From assembly GCF_029027405.1 (NCBI RefSeq), contig NZ_CP093396.1:992001-1056000 (forward strand): 64,000 nt of DNA, given 5' to 3'. The position numbers and the translations under genes were made by a program. Positions 6,792 to 21,589 of this stretch are shown piece after piece. Below the pieces are notes generated by a model that made no database searches, was not told where the DNA came from, and worked only from the letters and a program-made list of their open reading frames with translations. Each line of letters starts with the position of its first letter. Position 1 is the first letter of the stretch. The stretch comes from Sulfurimonas sp. (GTDB taxonomy: Bacteria > Campylobacterota > Campylobacteria > Campylobacterales > Sulfurimonadaceae).

Positions 6792-7300
6792 TAGTTGCCT
6801 CCAAGTAAAGATGCAACATCGAAGTTACACTTTTCTTTAAGCTTATCATACTTAGTAGACTCATACACTCCACCGCTAAGTTATGCATCATATTCTAGAT
6901 AAGCTTTAACTCTTGATTTTCTGTTTAGTTGTAGATTCTTAAAGTCTTTACTTATATAGCGGTCTATCAAAACTGGGTCACCAAAAGTTTTAGCACTTCT
7001 TTTAAAATACTTATTACAATCATAAGCAGCATCAAGAGCGGCATGATTAGCTTCAGTATCCAAAGGATTATCTAAAATCTTCTGATCTATTGCATATTTT
7101 TTTACTATAAATATCTCCACATCATCCCTAACACCATTATCATTAGAGTCTATCCCGAGAAGTGTTGAGTTGTTTAAAGTTTCATCTGGCTGGGGAGGAA
7201 GTTTATATCCGTTTATATTTTTATATACTGTTGCTTCCATACATCCAGTTATAAAAAGAACTAAAAACAGACCTAAAATTACTTTTTTTATACTACTCAT
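6791..7300 (-). pseudogene. Decayed paralogue of the GxDSNDNGxRDDVE lipoprotein (premature stop)
   Basis: The open part (7300 to 6881, 139 codons) starts MSSIKKVILGLFLVLFITGC, a lipoprotein signal with lipobox ITGC (Cys20), and keeps the calcium-loop-like GIDSNDNGVRDDVE segment. Compared with the intact paralogue at 11594-12148 it has lost about 15 residues in frame after KKYA, and a codon equivalent to GAG has become TAA at 6881-6883. Beyond the stop the frame stays similar to the paralogue down to the LLGGN end at 6791. A shortened lipoprotein could still be made, but the gene looks eroded. It heads the decayed duplicate of the lipoprotein/large-protein pair. Confidence 0.8.
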
Positions 7301-7375
7301 GATTATTTCCTTTTTTGTGCATTAAGATATAGATGTTTATGTTCTATGATTATAAGCTCTGTAAGTTGTGGAGGC

Positions 7376-7393
7376 ATGGAAGATATCTTCCAT
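7376..7393. repeat. 18-base perfect palindrome
   Basis: ATGGAAGATATCTTCCAT reads identically on both strands. It lies between the decayed lipoprotein copy and the large gene. The equivalent sequence near 12370-12385 has only the right half, so this palindrome may have arisen at a deletion junction rather than as a conserved operator. Confidence 0.5.
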
Positions 7394-7441
7394 ACCTTCT
7401 TGGAGGGTAAAAATATGATTAGTTTACATCGTGGATTGAGT

Positions 7442-7472
7442 AAAAGGTCGTATTTATAATAAATACCTGACC
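7442..7472 (-). terminator. Probable Rho-independent terminator of the large secreted-protein gene
   Basis: Read on the minus strand downstream of the stop at 7521: GGTC, a 2-base bulge, GTATTTA, loop TTA, TAAATAC, GACC, then TTTTA. The 11-pair interrupted stem followed by four T residues fits an AT-rich intrinsic terminator. A second inverted repeat (TTTACATG/CATGTAAA, 7482-7489 and 7505-7512) lies just upstream without a T run. Confidence 0.55.
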
Positions 7473-7520
7473 CTGCTAATCTTTACATGCAAGGAACATC
7501 CCTACATGTAAAAGACTCTA

Positions 7521-10500
7521 TCATTTAATCGAAAATGAAACATCTATGATTTGTAAACTATCCCCATCTGCCACAAACGCTACAGTTCCATCTTTTGAGA
7601 GGGTTACATTCCAAGCATGACCAGGAGTATCGTAACTACCTAAGAGTGAAGGAGAACTTGTGTTTGAAACATCTATGATTTGTAAACCACTAGGGCCATC
7701 TACCACAAATGCTACAGTTCCATCTTTTGAGAGGGTTACACCTCGTGCCTCACCAGGAGTATCGTAACTACCTAAGAGTGCAGGAGAACTTGGTTTTGAA
7801 ACATCTATGATTTGTAAACTATTATAATCTGCCACAAACGCTACAGTTCCATCTTTTGAGAGGGTTACACCTAAAGCATGACCAGGAGTATCGTAACTAC
7901 CTAAGAGTGAAGGAGACCTTGGGTTTGAAACATCTATGATTTGTAAACCACGAGAGCCTGCTACCACAAACGCTGCAGTTCCATCTTTTGAGAGGGTTAC
8001 ATCTGTAACATAATAAGGAATATCGTAACTACCTAAGAGTAAAGGAGAACTTGGGTTTGTAACATCTATGATTTGTAAACCATATCCGCCATCTGCCACA
8101 AACGCTACAGTTCCATCTTTTGAGAGGGTTACACCTCGTGCCTCACCAGGAGTATCGTAACGAACTAAGTAAAAAGGAGACCTTGGGTTTGAAACATCTA
8201 TGATTTCTAAACCAGTACTCTCATCTAGCACAAACGCTACTGTTCCATCTTTTGAGAGAGTTACACCTTGAGTCCTACCAGGAGTACGGTAACGAACTAA
8301 GCGTAAAGGAGACCTTGGGTTTGAAACATCTATAATTTGTAAACCATACCCGCCATCTGTCACAAACGCTACAGTTCCATCTTTTGAGAGGGTTACACCA
8401 TTAGCATAACTAGAAGTGTAACTACCAAGTAAAAAAGGTTTAATAGTACCTATTATTTTTATAGATACACTAACACTTTTACTACTTCCATAAGCATTTG
8501 TTGCAACAGCTTGTAAAGCATAGTTACTTTTTGTTGAGTAATTTAATGTTTTTGCTACGCTAATAGTACCATTTAGATCTACACTAAAGTCTTCATTTCC
8601 TTCTCCACTTAAACTTATGGACTCTATATCTCCCTCACTAGTCATGCTTAAAGTTCCAATTTGTGTACCTATTGAGCTATTTTCTTTTGTTTTTAAACTT
8701 ATAGGTTGAAGCGTTGGGGCATCTAAAAGATTATTAAGATACACATACACACTTGTAGGTAGACTTTTTCCTTGCTCATTGCTTGCTACTACTTTAAAGT
8801 CATAAACTCTTTTACTCTCATAATCAAGAAGGGCATCTTTAGTTACTGAGATGACTCCTATGTTATTTATTTTAAAGTTTTCATTTCCATCTCCTTGGAG
8901 TTCTATTGTTATTATTTCACTTAGTCCTTTGTTTACATGTAGTTTTCCTACATAAGTGTCTTCTTCACTATTTTCATCTATGTAACTTGCAGAGCCTGAG
9001 AGTTCTGGTGCATCTAATTCATTGTCTATTTTTATTCTCAATGTTACTGAAAGTGTTTGGGTATCTGTTGTAACACTTAGGTTAAAATCATATATATTTT
9101 TACTCTCATAATCTAAAACTACTCCCTTTTCTACTCTTACAACACCTTCATCATCTATGCTAAACTTATTACTTCCATCTCCTTGTATACTAAAAGTTGC
9201 ATTATTTTCAAGGAGGGCTACATGTATTTCTCCTACGATGGTATCTTTGATTGAGTTTTCTTTTACATGTAAAGTTTGTGGGTTTAGGAATATTTCATAA
9301 GCTATTGCATATACATCATCATATATATCTTCATCTTTATATATCTTTTGGACTACTGGTTCATAGTTTGAATTATAATCTTTGAGTAGTTTATTTTTAT
9401 TGTACATAGGTAACCAATAGAGTATATCTTCATAATTTATTATATTGTTACCATCTATATCTTTAAGAAGAAGTCTTTTTGTGAGATTTTCTATTCTTTG
9501 AGATATGCTTGTTGTATCTTGATTTAAAATATCTTTTGAAAGTTGGTATATGGCTTCACTTAGGATATTTACTTTAAAGTTATCTCTTTTTAGTTTGTTA
9601 CCTTTTATGATAGCTCTTATAGTTCCACCATTTGGAGTAGAGCTTGCATCTACCACTCCATCATCATTAACATCTATATCATCTCCTCCAAATATAGATA
9701 CTACATAATACTTATCATCTTTTAGGGTATTTAGTACATCACTTGGAAAGTGGATAACTCCTGCGGTTAGTGCACTATTTCCTCCTGTGGTTCTTGTGGT
9801 ATACAGAGAGTCATCTGTATTGTTAGCATCATATATATTTACTTCTGCATTACTTAAAGGTCCTAGTAATCCTTGTTTTAGTCTTGAGATTATTTTGTAC
9901 ACATATTGTTGGATATAAGTAGTGTAACTTCTACTACTTCCATCATCTCTTGCATAGTGAGTTACTTTAGGAGGGTTGCTTGTTCTTTTTGAAACAAATG
10001 TAACCTCTTTTTTTTCAGAAATTACTATATCTGCCACATGTCCTAGGTTTAACATATCTACTGCAGTAATATTAAAATCAAATGTTACTGCACTAGATGG
10101 TGTATCTATAGCTAAGTGAACTTCTTGTGGGATTGTACTTGGGGTAAAACCTTGAGTGTTTCTTACAAATACTTTATATACTCCTACTTCTACATCTTCT
10201 TGCTTAAGCACACTAAAGTGTTCTATAGGAAGGCATACATTTTCTATATCTTTGCTTCCAAAGGGCATATCTACTTCCAGGTTCATATCTGTATTACTAT
10301 CACTCCAAGTTAGTTGGACATTTACTACTCCTCTTTTGGGAGTTGGTATTTGTGATATATCACAATCAGATTCTATATACTCTACAGGGTCAGTTCCTTC
10401 TAGTTTATAAAATTCATTCTCTGTTTTATCTGTCCAATCATCAAAAACTTCACTACCTCCACAACTAGCTTTTACCCAACCGTTTCCACCTGTGTTGTCT

Positions 10501-11594
10501 GTAACATGATAGAGTTTTTTAGCTACTGCAAATGGATAGACATCTTCACTCATAACTACATTAGGATCATGTAAATGTTTTACAGTTATACGATAATTTT
10601 TTGTACCTTTTTCTATTTCTTGGTCTGTTGCCCATTGTGAGGATGCATTTTTATGTTTTTTAATAGAACTACTTAAAAAGTCCATAATCACTTTTTTACC
10701 TATATCTGTAGATATGTCTCTTCGTCCGTATCCATCTTCAAATGATATATTTTGACCCATATAATAATCAAATGCATGAAACTGCATATCAGAACTATTT
10801 TCAGTATATTCATTAACAGCATTAAGCATGTATGATCTATTTGGATTTGTTGTTGCATCTAATGTACCTTGATCTGCCACTTTATCATTATCAAAATTTA
10901 TATATGGGTGGAACCCTCTAGCTTCTCTTGTTGGCGAGCCTACACTCATCCAACTTATATAATCTTCTAACCATGCATTATCTCTATTTCCTTCTGGCTT
11001 TAACATATCTTCATATGCTTTAGCCGTAAAGATATCACCTTTCCCATGTGCAACGATTATAATACCATGCCCTAGTCTAATACTCTTTTTGTAATCATTA
11101 ATTTGTTTAGATAAATCAATACTTCTATCAACACTATATATATCAAGATAGTTTGTACCTCCTAAATCATCTACAATTTTATCAAATAGTTCTTTTTCTT
11201 TTTTTGATAATTTTGCTATTTTTCCAGCAAGATTAGTTGCTTTACTAAGTCCTCTTGTTAGAACTAACTTCATAATTGTTGTATAAGTATCCCAGCCATC
11301 TTCTTCAAGAGACAGAAGCATATATGTATCATATATATCTCCATAATATCCATGAGTTTGGTTGTATGATGTTTTAAAGTTTAGTTCTTTTTTCATCTTT
11401 GTTACATTACCATCATATTTTTCTAAGAGAATATTTTTTTCAATCAATCTTAATTTATATTTTGCATCTTCTTCACTTGTCATAATGCTATTAGCAAAAT
11501 ATATATCATTAATACACTCATTTATCTTGGGTGTATTCGCTTGAAGAGACAATGAAACAAACAATAAAAAGATTAAAATCATATACTTTTTCAT
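7521..11594 (-). CDS. Large secreted protein: hydrolase-like head, cadherin-like repeats, LVIVD beta-propeller
   Basis: The 1357-residue protein has a Sec signal (MKKYMILIFLLFVSLSLQA). Residues 140-330 resemble secreted alpha/beta-hydrolase-like proteins: GHGIIIVAHGKGD at 176-187, then SVGSPT and HAFDYYMG. The serine expected in the nucleophile elbow (usually HSxG) is replaced by Gly, HGKG. A middle region carries calcium-loop-like stretches (DIDVNDDGVVD, DIDGNNIINYED). Three cadherin-like repeats with LDYESK motifs follow (about 780-1070). The C-terminus has seven repeats containing VTLSKDGTVAFV and LQIIDVSNP, the LVIVD type, fitting a seven-bladed propeller. Its ATG overlaps the stop of the upstream lipoprotein gene as TAATG, so they form a unit. 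The role is unknown; adhesion or matrix binding is a guess. It is probably not an active serine hydrolase. Confidence 0.8.
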   Translation of the reverse strand: MKKYMILIFLLFVSLSLQANTPKINECINDIYFANSIMTSEEDAKYKLRLIEKNILLEKYDGNVTKMKKELNFKTSYNQTHGYYGDIYDTYMLLSLEEDGWDTYTTIMKLVLTRGLSKATNLAGKIAKLSKKEKELFDKIVDDLGGTNYLDIYSVDRSIDLSKQINDYKKSIRLGHGIIIVAHGKGDIFTAKAYEDMLKPEGNRDNAWLEDYISWMSVGSPTREARGFHPYINFDNDKVADQGTLDATTNPNRSYMLNAVNEYTENSSDMQFHAFDYYMGQNISFEDGYGRRDISTDIGKKVIMDFLSSSIKKHKNASSQWATDQEIEKGTKNYRITVKHLHDPNVVMSEDVYPFAVAKKLYHVTDNTGGNGWVKASCGGSEVFDDWTDKTENEFYKLEGTDPVEYIESDCDISQIPTPKRGVVNVQLTWSDSNTDMNLEVDMPFGSKDIENVCLPIEHFSVLKQEDVEVGVYKVFVRNTQGFTPSTIPQEVHLAIDTPSSAVTFDFNITAVDMLNLGHVADIVISEKKEVTFVSKRTSNPPKVTHYARDDGSSRSYTTYIQQYVYKIISRLKQGLLGPLSNAEVNIYDANNTDDSLYTTRTTGGNSALTAGVIHFPSDVLNTLKDDKYYVVSIFGGDDIDVNDDGVVDASSTPNGGTIRAIIKGNKLKRDNFKVNILSEAIYQLSKDILNQDTTSISQRIENLTKRLLLKDIDGNNIINYEDILYWLPMYNKNKLLKDYNSNYEPVVQKIYKDEDIYDDVYAIAYEIFLNPQTLHVKENSIKDTIVGEIHVALLENNATFSIQGDGSNKFSIDDEGVVRVEKGVVLDYESKNIYDFNLSVTTDTQTLSVTLRIKIDNELDAPELSGSASYIDENSEEDTYVGKLHVNKGLSEIITIELQGDGNENFKINNIGVISVTKDALLDYESKRVYDFKVVASNEQGKSLPTSVYVYLNNLLDAPTLQPISLKTKENSSIGTQIGTLSMTSEGDIESISLSGEGNEDFSVDLNGTISVAKTLNYSTKSNYALQAVATNAYGSSKSVSVSIKIIGTIKPFLLGSYTSSYANGVTLSKDGTVAFVTDGGYGLQIIDVSNPRSPLRLVRYRTPGRTQGVTLSKDGTVAFVLDESTGLEIIDVSNPRSPFYLVRYDTPGEARGVTLSKDGTVAFVADGGYGLQIIDVTNPSSPLLLGSYDIPYYVTDVTLSKDGTAAFVVAGSRGLQIIDVSNPRSPSLLGSYDTPGHALGVTLSKDGTVAFVADYNSLQIIDVSKPSSPALLGSYDTPGEARGVTLSKDGTVAFVVDGPSGLQIIDVSNTSSPSLLGSYDTPGHAWNVTLSKDGTVAFVADGDSLQIIDVSFSIK
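7527..8440 (-). repeat. Seven tandem ~129-base repeats encoding LVIVD propeller blades
   Basis: The blocks CATCTATGATTTGTAAAC and TTCCATCTTTTGAGAGGGTT recur about every 129 bases across the 3' end of the large gene, with near-identical stretches and short variable parts. They encode seven copies of a roughly 43-residue blade. Such identity at DNA level implies recent duplication or ongoing gene conversion, and copy number could vary between strains. Confidence 0.9.
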
Positions 11595-12148
11595 TAGTTG
11601 CCTCCAAGTAAAGATGCAACATCGAAGTTACACTTTTCTTTAAGCTTATCTGACTTAGTAGACTCATACACTCCACCGCTAAGCTCTGCGTCATATTCTA
11701 GATAAGCTTTAACTCTTGACTTTCTATTTAATTGTAAATTCTTAAAGTCTTTACCTAGATAGCTATCTAGCAAAACTGGATCACCATAATATTTAGCATA
11801 AAAATTAAAATAAAAATTACAATCAGAAGCAGCATCAAGAGCGGCATGATTAGCTTCAGTATCCAAAGGATTATCTAAAATCTGCTGATATGCACTAGCA
11901 AGCTGAAAACCTATCTCAGTTACAATCTTATGATCTGTTGCATATTTTTTTACTATAAATATCTCCACATCATCTCTAACACCATTATCATTAGAGTCTA
12001 TTCCAAGCAGTGTAGAGTTATTAAGAGCTTCATCTGGTTGGGGAGGAAGTTTATATCCGTTTATAGTTTCATCTTCTGTTGCGTCCATACATCCAGTTAT
12101 AAAAAGAACTAAAAACAGACCTAAAATTACTTTTTTTATACTACTCAT
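11594..12148 (-). CDS. Lipoprotein with calcium-loop-like GIDSNDNGVRDDVE motif (paralogue 2, intact)
   Basis: A 184-residue protein with a type II signal, LFITGC (Cys20), so it should be lipid-anchored. The mature start GYKLPPQPDEALNNSTLLGIDSNDNGVRDDVE contains a DxNxNGxxDDxE stretch typical of EF-hand/thrombospondin-like calcium loops. The rest is predicted helical (KKYATDHKIV, AYQQILDNPLD, HAALDAASDC). No catalytic family is recognised. It overlaps the start of the large secreted-protein gene (TAATG), and the same pairing is preserved in the decayed copy at 6622-7300, so the two products probably act together. It could be a chaperone, anchor or protective partner. Confidence 0.8.
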   Translation of the reverse strand: MSSIKKVILGLFLVLFITGCMDATEDETINGYKLPPQPDEALNNSTLLGIDSNDNGVRDDVEIFIVKKYATDHKIVTEIGFQLASAYQQILDNPLDTEANHAALDAASDCNFYFNFYAKYYGDPVLLDSYLGKDFKNLQLNRKSRVKAYLEYDAELSGGVYESTKSDKLKEKCNFDVASLLGGN

Positions 12149-12418
12149 GATTATTTCCTTTTTTTTGCAATAATTGATAATAGTATCTTTTAGTTTTATT
12201 TAGTGCATTAAGATATAAATGTTTATCTTATATTATTAACAGAGTAACAAGTGGTAACACTCTACACTAGATATGTCAATGAGGTTTTTCTAAACCTGTC
12301 ATATGCTCGATGATTATAAGCTCTGTAAGCTGTGAAGGTATAGATGCTATCATCTTTATCATCTTGTCGTAGATATCTTCCATACCTTCAGTGTTGTAAA
12401 AAATAATTTTTTCATCTT
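12149..12418. repeat. Duplicated intergenic block between lipoprotein paralogues
   Basis: This 270-base gap holds no gene. Its first part (12149-12265) repeats the sequence upstream of the third lipoprotein gene (12977-13093), including a degraded form of the AACAAGTG palindrome. Its later part (about 12307-12392, GATTATAAGCTCTGTAAG through ATATCTTCCATACCTTC) repeats in shortened form at about 7345-7400. The pattern shows that duplication included both flanks of the lipoprotein gene. Confidence 0.75.
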
Positions 12419-12976
12419 CTACTCTTTAATCGCATCTATATCAAAATCACATTTTGAAGGGTGACTCATAGTAGCTCCATACATATGACCTGCTAAATTT
12501 GCATTAAAAAGATAATATGCTTTTATACGCTCTTTTGTATTAAATACTTTATCTACATATTCCTCATTAAAAATATCGTTATCTATACTGTAATGACCAA
12601 CTTTTTTCAATTTTTGATAATAAGCATAACTTTCACAATCCTGAGCACGATTTATAAGCATATACTTTTTATCTGCATAAGCAGTTTGCGGGTTTTGTAT
12701 AACCTGTTGTGCAGTTGCTCCCCATTGCATTGCAATTCCTGTTTTGATTTTAGGGTAATCTGCTTTTGCATATTTTTTTATAACCCATATCTCCACATCA
12801 TCCCTAACCCCATTGTTATTACTGTCTATTCCAAGAAGTGTAGAGTTGTTTAAAGTTTCATCTGGTTGGGGAGGAAGTTTATATCCGTTTATAGTTTCAT
12901 CTTCTGTTGCTTCCATACATCCAGTTATGAAAAGAACTAAAAACAGACCTAAAATTACTTTTTTTATACTACTCAT
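12419..12976 (-). CDS. Lipoprotein with calcium-loop-like motif (paralogue 3, diverged C-terminus)
   Basis: A 185-residue protein. Its first 60 or so residues are nearly identical to the other two paralogues: MSSIKKVILGLFLVLFITGC, lipobox Cys20, then GIDSNNNGVRDDVEIWVIKKYAK. The remainder diverges strongly (MQWGATAQQVIQ, RAQDCESYAYYQK, RIKAYYLFNANLAGHMYG), so the family has a conserved head and a variable body. It stands alone, without a large secreted partner. It is divergent from the lsrG-like gene across a 175-base region that carries a strong plus-strand promoter and a palindrome. Confidence 0.8.
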   Translation of the reverse strand: MSSIKKVILGLFLVLFITGCMEATEDETINGYKLPPQPDETLNNSTLLGIDSNNNGVRDDVEIWVIKKYAKADYPKIKTGIAMQWGATAQQVIQNPQTAYADKKYMLINRAQDCESYAYYQKLKKVGHYSIDNDIFNEEYVDKVFNTKERIKAYYLFNANLAGHMYGATMSHPSKCDFDIDAIKE

Positions 12977-13073: not shown

Positions 13074-13093
13074 AACAAGTGGTAACACTTGTT
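13074..13093. promoter_or_regulatory. Palindromic operator candidate overlapping the -35 box
   Basis: AACAAGTG, GTAA, CACTTGTT: perfect 8-base arms around a 4-base centre. The last two bases are the first two of the -35 hexamer at 13092, a position typical of a regulator site. No T run follows, so it is not a terminator. A degraded copy is at about 12246-12262. The regulator is not encoded in the window as far as I can see. Confidence 0.55.
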
Positions 13094-13121
13094 GACTTAA
13101 TTGCATTATAAGAGATATAAT
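13092..13121 (+). promoter_or_regulatory. Sigma-70 promoter of the lsrG/lsrK-metK-mtn operon
   Basis: TTGACT (13092-13097) and TATAAT (13116-13121) are separated by 18 bases, the best promoter match seen in the window. Transcription would start near 13128, about 24 bases before the first ATG at 13152. Confidence 0.7.
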
Positions 13122-13151: not shown

Positions 13152-13442
13152 ATGTCAACAATAACAAAAAGAGTAACATTTATAGCAAAAGAAGGTAGTG
13201 AATCTAAGATGAAGGAGCTTTTAACAGCGATGGTAGCACCCAGTAAAGTAGAAGATGGATGTATTTTTTACGATATTTTTGTATATGAAAATAATCCTAA
13301 AAAATTTATGGCTGTTGAGTCATGGAGAGATGAAGCTGCTCTTGATGGACATAAAAGTACAGAGCATTATGCGACTTACAAATCTTCTTTTGAGCCATAT
13401 TGTGATAAAAAATATAGTGATGAACTAGAAATATTAGGATAA
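13152..13442 (+). CDS. Antibiotic-biosynthesis-monooxygenase-fold protein, LsrG-like
   Basis: A 96-residue single-domain ABM/dimeric alpha-beta barrel protein: KRVTFIAKEGSESKMKELL, then CIFYDIFVYENNPKKFMAVE and ESWRDEAALDGHKSTEHY. The last segment matches the ExWxDxxAxxxHxxTxHY pattern shared by LsrG and quinol monooxygenases such as YgiN. Known: LsrG isomerises phospho-AI-2. Because the next gene, 3 bases downstream, resembles the AI-2 kinase LsrK, an LsrG-like role is the best guess, but ABM proteins are hard to assign by sequence. It is the first gene of the operon, with promoter and palindrome directly upstream. Confidence 0.7.
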   Translation: MSTITKRVTFIAKEGSESKMKELLTAMVAPSKVEDGCIFYDIFVYENNPKKFMAVESWRDEAALDGHKSTEHYATYKSSFEPYCDKKYSDELEILG

Positions 13443-13445
13443 GTT

Positions 13446-15008
13446 TTGAGCTACTTAATGGCAATAGATGCTGGAACAGGAAGTGTTCGAGCAGTTATCT
13501 TTGATACAGTGGGAAATCAAATTAGTGTAGCTCAAAAAGAGTGGACTCACTTAGAAGAAGAGGGCGTGCCAAACTCTATGAGTTTTGATTTTGATAAAAA
13601 CTTTGAATTAGTAGTTTGGTGTATAAAAAATGCAATTTTAGATGCCAAGATAAAAAGTGAAGATATAGTTGCCCTAAGTGCCACAAGTATGCGAGAAGGT
13701 ATTGTTCTTTATGATGAAAATGGAAATGAGCTTTGGGCAGTTGCAAATGTAGATGCAAGAGCTGACAAAGAAGTTAAATATTTAAAAGAGACATTTTCTG
13801 GCGTAGAACAAGAGTTTTACAATTTATCAGGACAAACTTTTGCTCTAGGTGCTTTACCTAGAATTATGTGGCTTAAAAATAATAAACCTAAAGTTTATGA
13901 AAAAGTAGCAAATATCTCTATGATTGGAGATTGGATTTTAGCAAAGTTAAGCGGAGTTATTGCAACTGATCCAAGTAATGGTGGAACGACAGGAATTTTT
14001 TCTCTAGAAAACCGTGACTGGGTAAGTGATATGGCTACAAAAGTTGGAATAAAAAATGATATCTTTCCTCCAGTTTTAGAAGTTGGAACTTTGATGGGAA
14101 GTGTGAGTGAACAAGCTTCTAAATTAACAGGATTATCAAGAAAAACTAAAGTAGTTATGGGTGGTGGAGATGTTCAACTTGGAAGTGCTGGACTAGGCGT
14201 TGTCGAGTTAGGTCAAGTAGCAGTTTTAGGTGGTTCATTTTGGCAACAAGTTGTAAATATTCCTAGCTCTACTCCTCCTCCATCAGATATGGGTATAAGA
14301 GTAAACCCTCATGTTGTAAAAAATCAATCACAAGCAGAAGGTATAACTTTTTTTAGTGGTTTAGTTATGAGATGGTTTAGAGATGCTTTTTGTGAGATGG
14401 AAAAACAAGAAGCGCAAGAACGAGGCATAGATGCTTACTCTGTTTTGGAAGAAAAAGCAGCAAAAGTTCCTGTTGGGTCTTATGGAATTTTACCAATATT
14501 TTCAGATGCTATGAAGTATGGAAAATGGTATCACGCAGCTCCAAGTTTTTTAAACCTTAGTCTAGATGCTAGCATCTGTAATCGTGCTTCAATGTTTAGA
14601 AGTTTACAAGAAAATGCTTGTATTGTAAGTGCAATAAATTTAGAAAAAATTAAAGAATTTACAAATATAGAGATAGAGAAAATAGTTTTTGCCGGAGGGG
14701 CATCTAAAGGTGCTTTATGGTCGCAAATACTGGCAGATGTAACAGGCTGTCAAGTTCAAATACCTAAAGTAACAGAAGCAACTGCACTAGGAGCTGCAAT
14801 GGCGGCAGGTGTGGGTGCAGGCATATATGAGTCAATAACACAAGCCGCCAAAGACTTGGTTGTTTGGGATAAAACTTATGAACCAAATAAAGAAAATAAA
14901 AAACTGTATGATGAGATAAAAAAAAAGTTTAGTAAAGCTTATGAAGCGCAACTAAAGTTAGTTGATGATAATATCACGACTTCAATGTGGAAGGCACCTG
15001 GCTTATAG
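13446..15008 (+). CDS. lsrK: Autoinducer-2 kinase homologue (FGGY family)
   Basis: A 520-residue FGGY sugar kinase. Many stretches resemble enterobacterial LsrK: LMAIDAGTGSVRAVIFD at the start, SMREGIVLYDENG, ANVDARA, DPSNGGTTG, GGGDVQLG, GGSFWQQVVN, RWFRDAFC, YHAAPSFLNLS, and the ending TTSMWKAPGL. LsrK phosphorylates the AI-2 precursor DPD in the cytoplasm. Start: TTG at 13446 with AGGAT 6-7 bases upstream; an ATG at 13458 is the alternative and loses only four residues. No Lsr transporter, LsrR or LsrF gene is in the window. The sequence match is strong for the family and good for LsrK itself. The substrate could also be a related pentulose from the neighbouring salvage pathway. Confidence 0.85.
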   Translation: MSYLMAIDAGTGSVRAVIFDTVGNQISVAQKEWTHLEEEGVPNSMSFDFDKNFELVVWCIKNAILDAKIKSEDIVALSATSMREGIVLYDENGNELWAVANVDARADKEVKYLKETFSGVEQEFYNLSGQTFALGALPRIMWLKNNKPKVYEKVANISMIGDWILAKLSGVIATDPSNGGTTGIFSLENRDWVSDMATKVGIKNDIFPPVLEVGTLMGSVSEQASKLTGLSRKTKVVMGGGDVQLGSAGLGVVELGQVAVLGGSFWQQVVNIPSSTPPPSDMGIRVNPHVVKNQSQAEGITFFSGLVMRWFRDAFCEMEKQEAQERGIDAYSVLEEKAAKVPVGSYGILPIFSDAMKYGKWYHAAPSFLNLSLDASICNRASMFRSLQENACIVSAINLEKIKEFTNIEIEKIVFAGGASKGALWSQILADVTGCQVQIPKVTEATALGAAMAAGVGAGIYESITQAAKDLVVWDKTYEPNKENKKLYDEIKKKFSKAYEAQLKLVDDNITTSMWKAPGL

Positions 15009-16300: not shown

Positions 16301-17524
16301 ATGGAGTATAAAGAGTTAGATGTAAAAAGTGTTATATCGTATCTAAAAGATGTTGATGAGGTTATGGACTACTTTTGTGGTGATGATTTAGAAGCAAAAG
16401 AGATAGGAAATGGCAACTTAAATTATGTCTATCTCGTTAGTTCAATCTCAAACCCAAAAAAAGCACTTATAGTTAAACAGGCTGTTCCTTACCTTAGATG
16501 CGTAGGTGAAGAGTTTGCTCTTTCACGCCAAAGAATGACTTTTGAAATAAGAGCACTTTTAAAATTTAAAAATATTGTAACTAGTGTTATTCCTAAAATT
16601 TACCATGCAAGTGAAGATATGTCCATCGTAGTGATGGAGTTTCTTGATTCTCATAGCATCTTAAGAGATGGACTTACATCAAGAGTTAAATATCCAAATT
16701 TTAGTGAGCATATTTCTACCTACTTAGCAAACACACTTTTTAAAACTTCATCTCTTTGTTTAGACTCAACGCAAAAAAGAGAACTTGTATATGAGTTTAA
16801 TGCAAACAGTGAGCTTTGCAAACTTACAGAAGATTTTGTATTTACTTTTGCTTTTATGCAAAATGAAACTAATGATGAAGAGAATGTAAAAAACAATCCA
16901 CTAGCAAAAAAACTTTTTTTAGACATGGAGTTTAAGGTAAAAGTATTAGATTTAAAGTACAAGTTTATGACAGCTTCAGATGCTTTGATTCATGGAGATT
17001 TACATACTGGTTCGGTGATGTTAAATGATAAAGAAACATTTGTAATAGACCCAGAGTTTGCTTTTGTTGGACCTTTTGGTTTTGATATTGGTGCACTTTT
17101 GGCAAATCTTGTAAATAACTATATTCGTCATAGTGTTGTAACAAAAGATGAGGATTTTAAAAAATACCTTCTTCAAATGATAAAAGAAGTTTTAGAACTT
17201 TTTAATAAGAAATTTTTGAAACTATGGGAAGTTCAGAGTGATTCTGCTTTACTTATAGATGGATACATAGATGCTAATACAGCCTCAAAATATAGAGAAA
17301 AGTTTTTAAAAGAGATACTAAGAGATAGCGTAGGCTTTGCAGGTTGTAAGATGGCAAGACGAGTTTTTGGTGTTGCTGGTGTTGCTGAGATTCGAGGTAT
17401 AGAAAATCAAAAATTACGCTTAGATGCTGAGGCTTTAGTTTTAAAAATAGCTAGAGAATTTGTTATCAAATATGAAAAAATAGATAGTATTGAAGATATA
17501 TTGGAGATAATAATTGCAGGGTAA
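16301..17524 (+). CDS. mtnK: S-methyl-5-thioribose kinase
   Basis: Phosphorylates methylthioribose released from methylthioadenosine by nucleosidase (MTAN). The 407-residue protein has the aminoglycoside-phosphotransferase-like fold: glycine-rich loop GNGNLNYVY, then IVKQAVPYLR typical of MtnK, catalytic HGDLHTGSVM near residue 230, metal site DPEFAFVGPFGFDIG, and the arginine-rich C-terminal segment CKMARRVFGVAGVAEIRGIE. Its end overlaps mtnA by 11 bases. Family members may also accept 5-deoxyribose derived from the 5'-deoxyadenosine left by radical SAM enzymes, which would suit the mqnE neighbour. Confidence 0.92.
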   Translation: MEYKELDVKSVISYLKDVDEVMDYFCGDDLEAKEIGNGNLNYVYLVSSISNPKKALIVKQAVPYLRCVGEEFALSRQRMTFEIRALLKFKNIVTSVIPKIYHASEDMSIVVMEFLDSHSILRDGLTSRVKYPNFSEHISTYLANTLFKTSSLCLDSTQKRELVYEFNANSELCKLTEDFVFTFAFMQNETNDEENVKNNPLAKKLFLDMEFKVKVLDLKYKFMTASDALIHGDLHTGSVMLNDKETFVIDPEFAFVGPFGFDIGALLANLVNNYIRHSVVTKDEDFKKYLLQMIKEVLELFNKKFLKLWEVQSDSALLIDGYIDANTASKYREKFLKEILRDSVGFAGCKMARRVFGVAGVAEIRGIENQKLRLDAEALVLKIAREFVIKYEKIDSIEDILEIIIAG

Positions 17525-18590
17525 ATATAGAGCCTTATGGCTAAATGATGATAACTTTTTAGAAGTTATCGACCAGAGAAAACTTCCCTTTGAATATGTA
17601 ACAAAAGTTTTAAAAACTACTGATGGAATTGTTGAAGCGATAAAAAATATGACAGTTCGTGGTGCTGGGGTTATAGGAAGTGTTGCAGCTTTTGGCATCT
17701 ATACTGCATCTATGGAAGTGGAAAATTTGGGCTATGAAAAGTTAAAAGAAAAAGCAAAACTCATTAGAGATTCTCGACCAACGGCAGTAAACCTTATGTG
17801 GGCAGTTGATAAGATGATGGAGCTTTTAAAAAATTCAACTAACTTAGTTGCAGATGCTAAAAAATATGCCATAGAACTCAATGATGAAGAAGCAAAAGAA
17901 AGTCAAAATATCGCAAAACATGGTGCTGACATAATTGAAGAAATTTTAAAGAAAAAAAGTAAAACTAAGATAAATATTTTGACTCACTGCAATGCTGGTT
18001 GGTTAGCAGTCATAGATGAAGGAACTGCTTTAGCTCCAATATATGAAGCACAAAAAAGAGGGATAGATGTTCATGTTTGGGTAGATGAAACAAGACCTAG
18101 AAATCAAGGAGCATCTTTAACTGCTTGGGAGCTAACTCAAAGTAAAGTTAATCATACAATTATTGCAGATAATACAGGTGGACATCTTATGCAAATAGGT
18201 GAAGTTGATATGGTTATCACAGGTGCTGATAGAGTAAGTGCAAATGGCGATGTGGCAAATAAAATAGGAACATATTTAAAGGCACTTGCTGCAAAAGATA
18301 ATGGCGTTCCTTTTTATGTAGCTATCCCAGCATCTACCTTTGACTTTGATATAAGAGATGGAATGAAAGAGATTCCTATAGAGCTAAGAAGTGAAGATGA
18401 AGTTAAGTATATGAAAGGTATAGATGCTTCTGGAGTTGTAAGAGAAGTTTTAATCACTCCAAAAGATTCACCTGCAATAAATTATGGGTTTGATGTTACA
18501 CCAGCAAGACTTATAACTGGACTTATAACGGACAAAGGAGTTTGTAAAGCAAACTTTAGTGAGATAAATAAAAAATTTAAGAAGGCATAA
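17514..18590 (+). CDS. mtnA: S-methyl-5-thioribose-1-phosphate isomerase
   Basis: Converts methylthioribose-1-phosphate to methylthioribulose-1-phosphate. The 358-residue protein shows TVRGAGVIG, the cysteine of THCNAGWLA, the VDETRPRNQGA stretch and the aspartate of ITGADRVSANGDVANKIGTY, all MtnA/eIF2B-like signatures. The start is a TTG at 17514 within the end of mtnK, with GGAG about 8 bases before it, so translation is coupled. None of mtnB, mtnC or mtnD follows; an aldolase fusion does instead, pointing to the DHAP shunt rather than the full methionine salvage cycle. Confidence 0.95.
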   Translation: MQGKYRALWLNDDNFLEVIDQRKLPFEYVTKVLKTTDGIVEAIKNMTVRGAGVIGSVAAFGIYTASMEVENLGYEKLKEKAKLIRDSRPTAVNLMWAVDKMMELLKNSTNLVADAKKYAIELNDEEAKESQNIAKHGADIIEEILKKKSKTKINILTHCNAGWLAVIDEGTALAPIYEAQKRGIDVHVWVDETRPRNQGASLTAWELTQSKVNHTIIADNTGGHLMQIGEVDMVITGADRVSANGDVANKIGTYLKALAAKDNGVPFYVAIPASTFDFDIRDGMKEIPIELRSEDEVKYMKGIDASGVVREVLITPKDSPAINYGFDVTPARLITGLITDKGVCKANFSEINKKFKKA

Positions 18591-18592
18591 TT

Positions 18593-20554
18593 ATGAAAAG
18601 TTTATGGAATAATAACGAAGCAAAAAAGTACAAAACAGATTTAGATTTAAGAGTTTATACATCAAGACTTTTAGGACAAGATAGCTCTTTAGTTTTACAT
18701 GGTGGTGGAAATACTTCTGTGAAATCGACTGCTATAAATCTTTTTGGTGATGAAGAAGAGATACTTTATGTAAAGGGAAGTGGTTGGGATTTAGCAACTA
18801 TTGAAGCTGAAGGTTTTGCTCCTGTTAAGATGGAAATGTTACTTAAAATGGCGAAATTAGAAGAGTTAAACGACCCAGATATGGTTAAGTATCAAAGACT
18901 TGCTATGACAAACCCATCTGCTCCAAACCCTTCTGTTGAAGCTATTCTTCATGCTATTATCCCTTTTAAATTTGTTGACCATACTCATACAGACGCTGTT
19001 GTGACTATTACAAATACAAAAGGTGGCGAAGATAAAATAAAAGAACTTTATGGAGATAAAGTTCTAATTATTCCTTATATTATGCCAGGGTTCGTTCTTG
19101 CAAAATTGATTTATGATATGACTAGAGATGTTGATTGGTCTCAGTTAGAAGGTATGGTTCTTATGAATCATGGTCTTTTTACTTTTAACGATAACGCACA
19201 AAAGTCTTATGAAAAAACCATAGAGTTAGTTGATAAGGCTGAGAAATATTTGGCTCAAAATGGTGCAGTTATAAATGTAACTGATGATAAAACTACTATT
19301 GGGATTTTAGAATTAGCAAATATAAGACGAGAAGTATCAAAACTTAAAAAACATGCAACTATTTCTATATTAAACGATTCAAATGAAGCGATAAACTTCT
19401 CGAAACAAGATATAGAAAAAATAGCAACGCAGGGTCCTTTAACTCCTGATCATGTTATAAGAACAAAAAGAATTCCAGTAATATTAAGAGATGGTGCTAA
19501 GATTGATTTAGCTTATTTCGTTGAGGATTATAAAAAGTATTTTGAAGAAAATAAAACTGATGAAACTCTTTTAAATCCAGCTCCAAATTTTGCAATATTA
19601 AAAAACAATGGAAGCCTCTCTTTTGGTAAAAATGCAAAAGAAGCAAATATTATTAAAGATATAAATGAGCATTCGTTTGAAGCAATTTTAAAGGCTGAGA
19701 AATTAGGTGGATATAAAGCTTTAAGTGCGGCAAAAATATTTGAAGTTGAGTATTGGAGCTTAGAACAAGCTAAACTAAAAAAGAGTGGAAATTCTCTTGA
19801 ATTTGGGGGAAAAGTTGCACTTGTAACTGGTGGAGCTAGTGGTATTGGTCGCTCTATTGCACAGATGCTAAATGCTAAAGGTGCGGCAGTAGTTGTTCTT
19901 GATATAAATCCTGAGGTAGAGCAGATATTTAATAAGGCTGATGCTAAAGGTGTGAAGTGCGATTTAACTTCAAGTTCTGATATAAAAAATGCTATAGAAG
20001 TTGCTGTTAAAAGTTTTGGAGGGATTGATATAGTTGTAAGTAATGCAGGTATTTTTACTCCAAGTGAAAACCTTGATACATTAAGTGATGAAAATTGGGA
20101 AAAAAGTATGAATATAAATCTAACTTCCCATCAAAAACTTATAAAACAAACAGCACCATTTTTAAAACTTGGTATAGATGCTAGCATCATTATGGTCGCA
20201 TCTAAAAACTTCCCAGCACCAGGAAAAGGAGCGGCTGCTTACTCTGTTGCAAAAGCAGGTCAAACTCAACTAGCAAGAATTGCGGCACTTGAATTTGGTG
20301 AATATGGTGTTAGAGTAAATACTCTGCATCCTCATGCTGTTTTTGATACTGCAATTTGGACAGATGAAGTTTTAGCCAATCGTGCAAAAGCTTATGGAAT
20401 GAGTGTCCAAGAATATAAAACAAATAATGTTTTAAAGACTGAAATTCGTTCTAATGATGTAGCAGAGTTAGTTTGTGCAATGGCTGGAAAGGCATTTGCT
20501 AAAACAACAGGTGCTCAAGTTGCCATAGATGGCGGAAGTGACAGGATTATATAA
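18593..20554 (+). CDS. Bifunctional class II aldolase / short-chain dehydrogenase, probable methylthioribulose-1-phosphate aldolase
   Basis: A 653-residue fusion. The N-terminal half is a class II (zinc) aldolase: LHGGGNTSVK, EAILHAIIPF, the HTHTDAV histidines and MNHGLF. The C-terminal half (from about residue 400) is an SDR: KVALVTGGASGIGRSIAQ for NAD(P), NAG, and YSVAKAG (Tyr-x3-Lys). Related fusions act on rhamnulose-1-phosphate. Right after mtnK-mtnA the likely substrate is methylthioribulose-1-phosphate (or the 5-deoxy analogue), cleaved to dihydroxyacetone phosphate plus an aldehyde that the SDR domain could oxidise or reduce. The 2-base gap to mtnA and the direct TAA-ATG junction to mqnE support one operon. 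Confidence 0.85.
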   Translation: MKSLWNNNEAKKYKTDLDLRVYTSRLLGQDSSLVLHGGGNTSVKSTAINLFGDEEEILYVKGSGWDLATIEAEGFAPVKMEMLLKMAKLEELNDPDMVKYQRLAMTNPSAPNPSVEAILHAIIPFKFVDHTHTDAVVTITNTKGGEDKIKELYGDKVLIIPYIMPGFVLAKLIYDMTRDVDWSQLEGMVLMNHGLFTFNDNAQKSYEKTIELVDKAEKYLAQNGAVINVTDDKTTIGILELANIRREVSKLKKHATISILNDSNEAINFSKQDIEKIATQGPLTPDHVIRTKRIPVILRDGAKIDLAYFVEDYKKYFEENKTDETLLNPAPNFAILKNNGSLSFGKNAKEANIIKDINEHSFEAILKAEKLGGYKALSAAKIFEVEYWSLEQAKLKKSGNSLEFGGKVALVTGGASGIGRSIAQMLNAKGAAVVVLDINPEVEQIFNKADAKGVKCDLTSSSDIKNAIEVAVKSFGGIDIVVSNAGIFTPSENLDTLSDENWEKSMNINLTSHQKLIKQTAPFLKLGIDASIIMVASKNFPAPGKGAAAYSVAKAGQTQLARIAALEFGEYGVRVNTLHPHAVFDTAIWTDEVLANRAKAYGMSVQEYKTNNVLKTEIRSNDVAELVCAMAGKAFAKTTGAQVAIDGGSDRII

Positions 20555-21589
20555 ATGAATCGTTTAAACTTTGAGCAATCTCTTGAGCTATATGAGATGG
20601 ATTTTTTTACTCTTGGAGTTATGGCAGATGAAAGACGAAAAGAACTTCATGGTAAAAAAACTTACTTTAATATAAATCGTCATATAAATCCTACAAATGT
20701 TTGTGCTGATGTTTGTAAGTTTTGTGCGTATTCGGCAACTAGAAAAAACCCGAACCAATACACAATGACTCATGATGAGATTATGGAGATTGTCAAAGAT
20801 GTTGCGAGTCGTGGAGCAAAAGAAGTTCACATAGTTTCTGCTCATAATCCAAATACTGGACTTGAGTGGTACTTAGAGATTTTTAAAAAGATAAAAACCG
20901 CTTATCCGCATCTTCATGTTAAAGCGCTTACAGCAGCTGAAGTTGATTTTTTAGCAAGAGAATATGACAAAAGTTATGATGAAATACTAGACCTTATGGT
21001 TGAAAACGGTGTTGACTCTATGCCTGGTGGTGGTGCTGAAATCTTTGATGAGAAGGTTCGTGATTTTATATGTAAGGGTAAAGTGACTTCGGCTCAATGG
21101 TTGGAGATACATGAAAAATGGCATGCTAGAGGCAAAATGTCAAATGTAACTATGCTTTTTGGTCATGTTGAAAGTCGAGAAAATAGAATTGACCATATGA
21201 TGAGAATACGAGAACTTCAAGATAAAACAGGTGGTTTTAATGCTTTTATACCTCTAGTTTATCAAAGAGAAAACAACTATTTAAAAGTTAAAGATTTTAT
21301 GAGTGCAAATGAAATCTTAAAAACTATGGCAGTGAGCCGTTTAGTTTTAGATAATGTACCTAATATAAAAGCGTATTGGGTTACAAGTACAGTAAATCTT
21401 GCTCTTTTAGCACAAGAATTTGGAGCAAATGACCTAGATGGAACGATAGAAAAAGAGTCTATAAACTCAGCGGCTGGAGCGGCTAGTGCTAATGGTGTAA
21501 ACTTAGAAGATTTTGTAGCACAGATAAAAAATAGTGGTTTTATGCCTGTTGAAAGAGATAGTTTATATAATGAAATTAAAGAGTGGTAA
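20555..21589 (+). CDS. mqnE: Aminodeoxyfutalosine synthase (radical SAM, menaquinone pathway)
   Basis: A 344-residue radical SAM enzyme with the cluster motif CADVCKFC (Cx3Cx2C), followed by ASRGAKEVHIVSAHNP, ALTAAEV and MPGGGAEIF, as in MqnE. It joins the adenosyl part of SAM to 3-(1-carboxyvinyloxy)benzoate, giving aminodeoxyfutalosine. MqnC is the closest alternative. Known: in Campylobacterota the same nucleosidase (MTAN/MqnB) cleaves aminodeoxyfutalosine and methylthioadenosine, which ties this gene to the mtn genes before it. Start and stop abut both neighbours without gaps. Confidence 0.9.
   Translation: MNRLNFEQSLELYEMDFFTLGVMADERRKELHGKKTYFNINRHINPTNVCADVCKFCAYSATRKNPNQYTMTHDEIMEIVKDVASRGAKEVHIVSAHNPNTGLEWYLEIFKKIKTAYPHLHVKALTAAEVDFLAREYDKSYDEILDLMVENGVDSMPGGGAEIFDEKVRDFICKGKVTSAQWLEIHEKWHARGKMSNVTMLFGHVESRENRIDHMMRIRELQDKTGGFNAFIPLVYQRENNYLKVKDFMSANEILKTMAVSRLVLDNVPNIKAYWVTSTVNLALLAQEFGANDLDGTIEKESINSAAGAASANGVNLEDFVAQIKNSGFMPVERDSLYNEIKEW

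Follow-up and report, generated by a model that had tools for sequence, protein, structure and literature searches.

A true LsrK-type kinase in a Sulfurimonas gene run for recycling S-adenosylmethionine by-products, and a proposed uptake-free salvage of self-made autoinducer-2

The window, by which we mean the whole stretch of 64,000 nucleotides of Sulfurimonas DNA that was analysed, contains an open reading frame for LsrK, the kinase of autoinducer-2 (AI-2, DPD). It has long been argued whether AI-2 serves mainly as a signal or is a by-product of metabolism, and the genes among which this kinase lies bear on that question. The kinase gene stands second in a closely spaced series on the plus strand, which is preceded by a promoter-like site and contains the following features.

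13092–13121, plus strand: promoter-like site, TTGACT-18-TATAAT, 11 of 12 consensus matches, just upstream of the ABM gene
13152–13442, plus strand: 96-aa ABM-domain protein, proposed P-DPD isomerase (LsrG-like), from PF03992, a weak NF007791 match, a structural model and linkage
13446–15008, plus strand: LsrK, autoinducer-2 (DPD) kinase, from NF008187, 5ya0, the tree and active-site residues
15085–16284, plus strand: MetK, methionine adenosyltransferase (TIGR01034, 368.8 bits, cut-off 309.4)
16301–17524, plus strand: MtnK, methylthioribose kinase (TIGR01767, 477 bits, cut-off 275)
17514–18590, plus strand: MtnA, methylthioribose-1-phosphate isomerase (TIGR00512, 417 bits, cut-off 279)
18593–20554, plus strand: class II aldolase fused to a short-chain dehydrogenase (SDR), RhaEW-like (NF006196, 1019 bits, cut-off 831)
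20555–21589, plus strand: MqnE, aminofutalosine synthase, radical SAM (NF006276, 646 bits, cut-off 560)

The kinase is encoded by a single open frame of 520 amino acids with a TTG start at 13446, a stop at 15008 and the C-terminus ITTSMWKAPGL. The original prediction described an LsrK homologue over the full length, including the TTSMWKAPGL tail, and this description held at each level of comparison. The NCBIfam equivalog for autoinducer-2 kinase, NF008187, matched residues 1–520 with 872.5 bits against a cut-off of 528, while xylulokinase, the second-best family, reached 194 bits, far under its own cut-off. The best solved relative is E. coli LsrK (PDB 5ya0; 640 bits over residues 3–520), which is 56% identical to the window's protein, and the runner-up structure scored 99 bits. 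Phylogeny had been named as a way in which the assignment could fail; a maximum-likelihood tree placed the ORF inside one group (support 100/99) with the LsrK proteins of E. coli, Ensifer, Sinorhizobium and Campylobacterota, separate from xylulokinases, glycerol kinases and unnamed FGGY kinases, although long outgroup branches make the branching order within the LsrK group unsure. The residues proposed to form the DPD site of E. coli LsrK are T21, S91, M92, R93, D253, V254, F276, Q278, E308 and I310 (PMC8016206). All ten are kept in the window's protein, and all are kept in 62 Campylobacterota sequences with a single exception at V254; at six of these sites, at most one of the seven FGGY kinases used for comparison has the same residue. 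On this sequence evidence, the identification of the ORF as a true LsrK is strong. No other FGGY kinase is encoded in the genome (2.83 Mb). Residues of E. coli LsrK that contact HPr are not kept (E122 is replaced by Y and A155 by K), and control by HPr as in E. coli was rejected on the loss of these interface residues.

Downstream of lsrK, the genes metK, mtnK, mtnA, the aldolase-SDR fusion and mqnE follow with gaps of at most 76 bp; mtnA and mtnK overlap by 11 bp, and mqnE starts without a gap after the fusion gene. The lsrK gene belongs to a run that recycles by-products of S-adenosylmethionine (SAM), not to a signal-uptake system, and the run from the ABM gene through lsrK to mqnE is presumably transcribed as one unit. 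The surroundings of the kinase had initially been described as holding no lsrACDB, lsrR or lsrF. They do lack proteins of the LsrB, LsrR and LsrF families, but that description overlooked the ABM gene at 13152–13442 and the SAM-salvage run. Upstream of the ABM gene, the motif GATATAAT or GCTATAAT, with a similar −10 element, is found again in many relatives; promoter-like sites across the region total no more than in shuffled sequence. A search of the region for regulatory RNA gave nothing at Rfam gathering scores.

Two further observations concern the DNA upstream. A perfect inverted repeat, AACAAGTG-gtaa-CACTTGTT, occupies positions 13074–13093, upstream of and touching the −35 element of the promoter-like site. 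It is not kept in relatives and was rejected as a conserved operator, being unique to this genome among the sequences compared. On the minus strand, positions 6881–12976 hold three near-identical lipoprotein-like ORFs beginning MSSIKKVILGLFLVLFITGC together with a repeat protein of 1357 aa; two of the three lipoprotein-like ORFs were scanned against Pfam and gave no match. These ORFs separate a glnD-like gene from the ABM-lsrK run and look like an insertion, since the glnD-like gene and the run are direct neighbours in most of the same-genus relatives read.

Elsewhere in the genome, the search for luxS that the original prediction had called for found the gene at C1:340309–340761 (S-ribosylhomocysteine lyase match, 303 bits), 665 kb from lsrK, and an MTAN-family protein is also encoded. 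The companion search for receptors of the lsrB/rbsB type and for lsrF returned no protein of either family in the whole genome (PF13407 and PF01791), and none of the LsrR family (PF04198) was found, so that the absence of lsrB, lsrR and lsrF first noted for the surroundings holds genome-wide for these three families. Among the papers available to the search, none mentioned LsrK together with Sulfurimonas.

The distribution of the kinase was surveyed in 228 genomes of the same family, 163 of which encode LsrK, and co-occurrence was counted in the 114 that were at least 95% complete. LuxS is present in 113 of these 114. A class II aldolase domain is found in all 93 LsrK-positive genomes and in one of 21 LsrK-negative genomes (93 and 0 against 1 and 20; p = 2e-21, a value that overstates the case, as do all p-values here, because the counts are uncorrected for shared ancestry). 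In the sole exception (G053), the aldolase lies beside luxS at a contig end. An orthologue of the ABM protein is present in 90 of the 93 LsrK-positive genomes and in none of the 21 others (90 and 3 against 0 and 21). The LsrK-negative genomes are distributed over several genera. The suggestion that the kinase stands without processing enzymes is thus contradicted, both by the ABM protein encoded directly upstream and by the almost perfect co-occurrence of the aldolase with LsrK.

Gene order adds a connection to LuxS. The distance between lsrK and luxS is 1.6–8.1 kb in 23 genomes from four other genera; most of these regions that were read have, between the two genes, the ABM gene and one for a stand-alone aldolase (about 390 aa). 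In the window's own genus, lsrK is part of the region around glnD and mqnE, and luxS is still flanked by the same genes but lsrK is not among them (locus L052), a pattern that suggests a relocation. The trio of lsrK, ABM gene and aldolase gene recurs in other Campylobacterota families. All three are present in 52 of 80 named loci listed, in Sulfurimonas, Sulfurovum, Sulfurospirillum and Arcobacter, and many of the other loci are cut by contig ends; the 80 matches listed from the scan of named genomes are all Campylobacterota as judged by their titles, and beyond the phylum the trio was followed in plasmid records.

The ABM gene lies 3 bp upstream of lsrK and adjoins it in most loci. Its product matches PF03992 with 51.7 bits, and its only NCBIfam match is to LsrG (NF007791), at 28.4 bits, which fails the cut-off of 135. 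An AlphaFold2 model of the protein (pLDDT 92) superposes on E. coli LsrG (3qmq) with a TM-score of 0.91; this comparison ranks 12th, several other ABM proteins being equal or better, and in sequence the protein is nearer to PA3566 and Rv0793 than to LsrG. Taken with its linkage to lsrK, these features make it a candidate P-DPD isomerase that is distantly LsrG-like.

The product of the fusion gene (653 aa) combines a PF00596 aldolase domain with an SDR domain and contains the SDR motif YxxxK and the aldolase motif H-x-H...H; the aldolase residues E116, H130, H132 and H193 are invariant. Among LsrK-positive genomes, the intact fusion is present in 20 of 22 that encode MtnK and in none of the 71 that do not (20 and 2 against 0 and 71). 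Nine MtnK-negative genomes carry a fusion-type aldolase from which the SDR YxxxK has been lost, the aldolase half still being 72–83% identical, and the majority of relatives have a stand-alone aldolase without an SDR. Since the SDR is intact only together with MtnK and decayed in these nine genomes, the two halves would appear to divide the labor: the aldolase half would serve the LsrK branch, in which it probably takes the place of LsrF, and the SDR half would be needed only for the aldehyde from the MtnK/MtnA branch. Cleavage of P-HPD should require no dehydrogenase, because P-HPD is more oxidised than 5-deoxyribulose-1-phosphate and would yield a product at the level of acetate. An earlier idea that the SDR reduces P-HPD before cleavage was dropped, as most LsrK-positive genomes have the aldolase without an SDR and nine have a decayed one. 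In five MtnK-positive genomes without the fusion, a third gene of roughly 200 aa follows mtnA; the two examples examined match methylthioribulose-1-phosphate dehydratase weakly, under the cut-off.

In the literature examined, RhaEW proteins are the only relatives of the fusion with tested biochemistry; they cleave L-rhamnulose-1-phosphate, and their aldolase activity needed NAD+ in vitro (PMC3870299), a requirement that calls for caution about the stand-alone forms. Rhamnose catabolism was rejected as the function of the fusion here, as LsrK is the sole FGGY kinase of the genome and there is no rhamnulokinase. No record of retro-Claisen cleavage by a class II sugar-phosphate aldolase was found in the literature examined. 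Variant arrangements of the gene were also seen. Genome G217, which lacks mtnK, has a single frame of 908 aa (L071:10340-13063) that unites an aldolase and a decayed SDR with a complete MqnE and is possibly a three-part fusion. In two other genomes without mtnK (G106 and G206, loci L120 and L124), an mtnA gene whose product is 59% identical to the window's adjoins the aldolase with decayed SDR.

Sinorhizobium meliloti and Ensifer canadensis provide an independent case: their lsr operons contain lsrACDB, lsrK and genes for a sugar-binding regulator, an ABM protein and a class II aldolase, with no lsrF in the stretch examined. The aldolase is 40–41% identical to the window's aldolase half over its full length, and the S. 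meliloti ABM protein matches LsrG with 109 bits. The aldolase gene adjoins lsrB in both species (L226:1915-3165, on S. meliloti pSymB, and L218:1900-3156, in E. canadensis). A second and distant lineage without LsrF in these operons therefore has an aldolase of the same family, and the Sinorhizobium/Ensifer aldolase is likely an unrecognised AI-2 processing enzyme.

These findings can be assembled into a pathway, for which the enteric steps as far as P-TPO, and the products of LsrF, are taken from the literature (PMC8016206). MetK would make SAM, methyl transfer from which would leave SAH, and MTAN and LuxS would convert SAH to homocysteine and DPD. LsrK would phosphorylate DPD to P-DPD, which would be trapped in the cell, and the ABM protein would convert this to P-HPD (hydrated P-TPO), the product of LsrG. 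DHAP and a two-carbon unit, most likely acetate, would then be released from P-HPD/P-TPO by the class II aldolase, a metal-type enzyme acting in the role of LsrF. What the ABM protein and the aldolase act on and produce is assigned from genomic context. In the window, a parallel shunt would lead from methylthioribose or 5-deoxyribose through MtnK and MtnA to a pentulose-1-phosphate, which the same aldolase could split into DHAP and an aldehyde, and the fused SDR would oxidise the aldehyde released in this branch to an acid.

We consider it likely that LsrK acts in such an uptake-free salvage of self-made DPD, running from LuxS through LsrK, the ABM isomerase and the class II aldolase to DHAP and acetate. 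Handling of self-made AI-2 inside the cell, which the original prediction had raised, is the reading to be preferred, as the genome encodes LuxS and an MTAN-family protein and lsrK neighbours luxS in four related genera; of the terms then offered (trapping, quenching, recycling), the intracellular setting stands, and trapping and quenching are better called salvage. The broader proposition is held with somewhat less assurance, though on balance it is favoured: that many Campylobacterota have a receptor-free AI-2 pathway in which the ABM enzyme is divergent and a class II aldolase stands in for LsrF, and that in some Sulfurimonas a single fusion of aldolase and dehydrogenase completes two branches of SAM by-product recycling, that of LuxS and that of MTA/5-deoxyadenosine.

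Other readings of the same genes were weighed against this one. The kinase might handle external AI-2, taken up by a transporter other than LsrACDB, and so interfere with the signalling of other species. Sinorhizobium, which has the same kinase-ABM-aldolase trio, possesses an Lsr importer and responds to foreign AI-2 (Pereira 2008, cited in PMC2728841); the Sulfurimonas genome, however, has no binding protein of the LsrB/RbsB family (PF13407), and luxS is present, often beside lsrK in relatives, which renders import unlikely. That the kinase acts instead on a SAM-derived pentulose (5-deoxyribulose or methylthioribulose) as part of the MtnK/MtnA shunt, a variant of the related pentulose substrate suggested at the outset, would fit the finding that, in the window and in a few relatives, the same gene run holds lsrK together with mtnK, mtnA and the fusion gene. 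Across the 114 genomes, however, MtnK is associated neither with LsrK (p = 0.56) nor with the aldolase (p = 0.56); mtnK is missing from 71 of the 93 LsrK-positive genomes and lsrK from three of the 25 MtnK-positive ones. MtnK, moreover, already phosphorylates that branch, and LsrK keeps the DPD-site residues. A role as another pentulose kinase was rejected on the tree, the active site and this lack of association, and the shunt substrate is accordingly quite unlikely.

P-DPD could also be an intracellular signal for some regulator, with the ABM protein and aldolase merely terminating it. In enteric bacteria, P-DPD is the ligand of LsrR (PMC8016206, PMC2728841), and the window-specific inverted repeat overlaps the −35 element; against this, the genome encodes no LsrR-family protein and the repeat is not kept in relatives, and we regard a signalling role for P-DPD as very improbable. 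Salvage remains the preferred reading, under which AI-2 of the cell's own making is probably consumed as waste carbon. The former epsilonproteobacteria remain an example of bacteria that have LuxS but for which no receptor is known (PMC2561040). A kinase, a candidate isomerase and an aldolase that travel together, often beside luxS, offer a concrete answer, namely that these bacteria consume AI-2. The finding of a genuine LsrK in a new setting makes the question of signal or waste testable in a large luxS-bearing group. From it, a role can also be predicted for the class II aldolase of Sinorhizobium, whose lsr operons have no lsrF.

Comparison with characterized systems places the locus between several of them. 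The kinase is orthologous to E. coli LsrK (5ya0), with the same length, C-terminus and DPD-site residues, whereas the enterobacterial lsr system as a whole differs in possessing the LsrB, LsrR and LsrF families, none of which is matched in this genome, and in the HPr contacts that are not kept here. The lsr operon of Sinorhizobium/Ensifer resembles the window in its lsrK, in an ABM gene that is LsrG-like, in an aldolase from the same class II family and in the lack of lsrF; it differs in having an importer and a repressor, and Sinorhizobium is without LuxS (PMC2561040), while the Sulfurimonas genome has LuxS and no importer component of the LsrB family was found in it. RhaEW, an L-rhamnulose-1-phosphate aldolase/lactaldehyde dehydrogenase (PMC3870299), has the same two-domain architecture as the fusion, but this genome lacks a rhamnulokinase, and most relatives have the aldolase half alone. 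The DHAP shunt, in which MtnK, MtnA and Ald2 convert SAM-derived 5-deoxypentoses to DHAP (PMC10986504), likewise sets a kinase, an isomerase and a class II aldolase in a row, and MtnK and MtnA are present here. Unlike Ald2, the aldolase of the window is a fusion of the RhaEW type, its annotation naming another aldolase family, and among relatives it tracks LsrK rather than MtnK.
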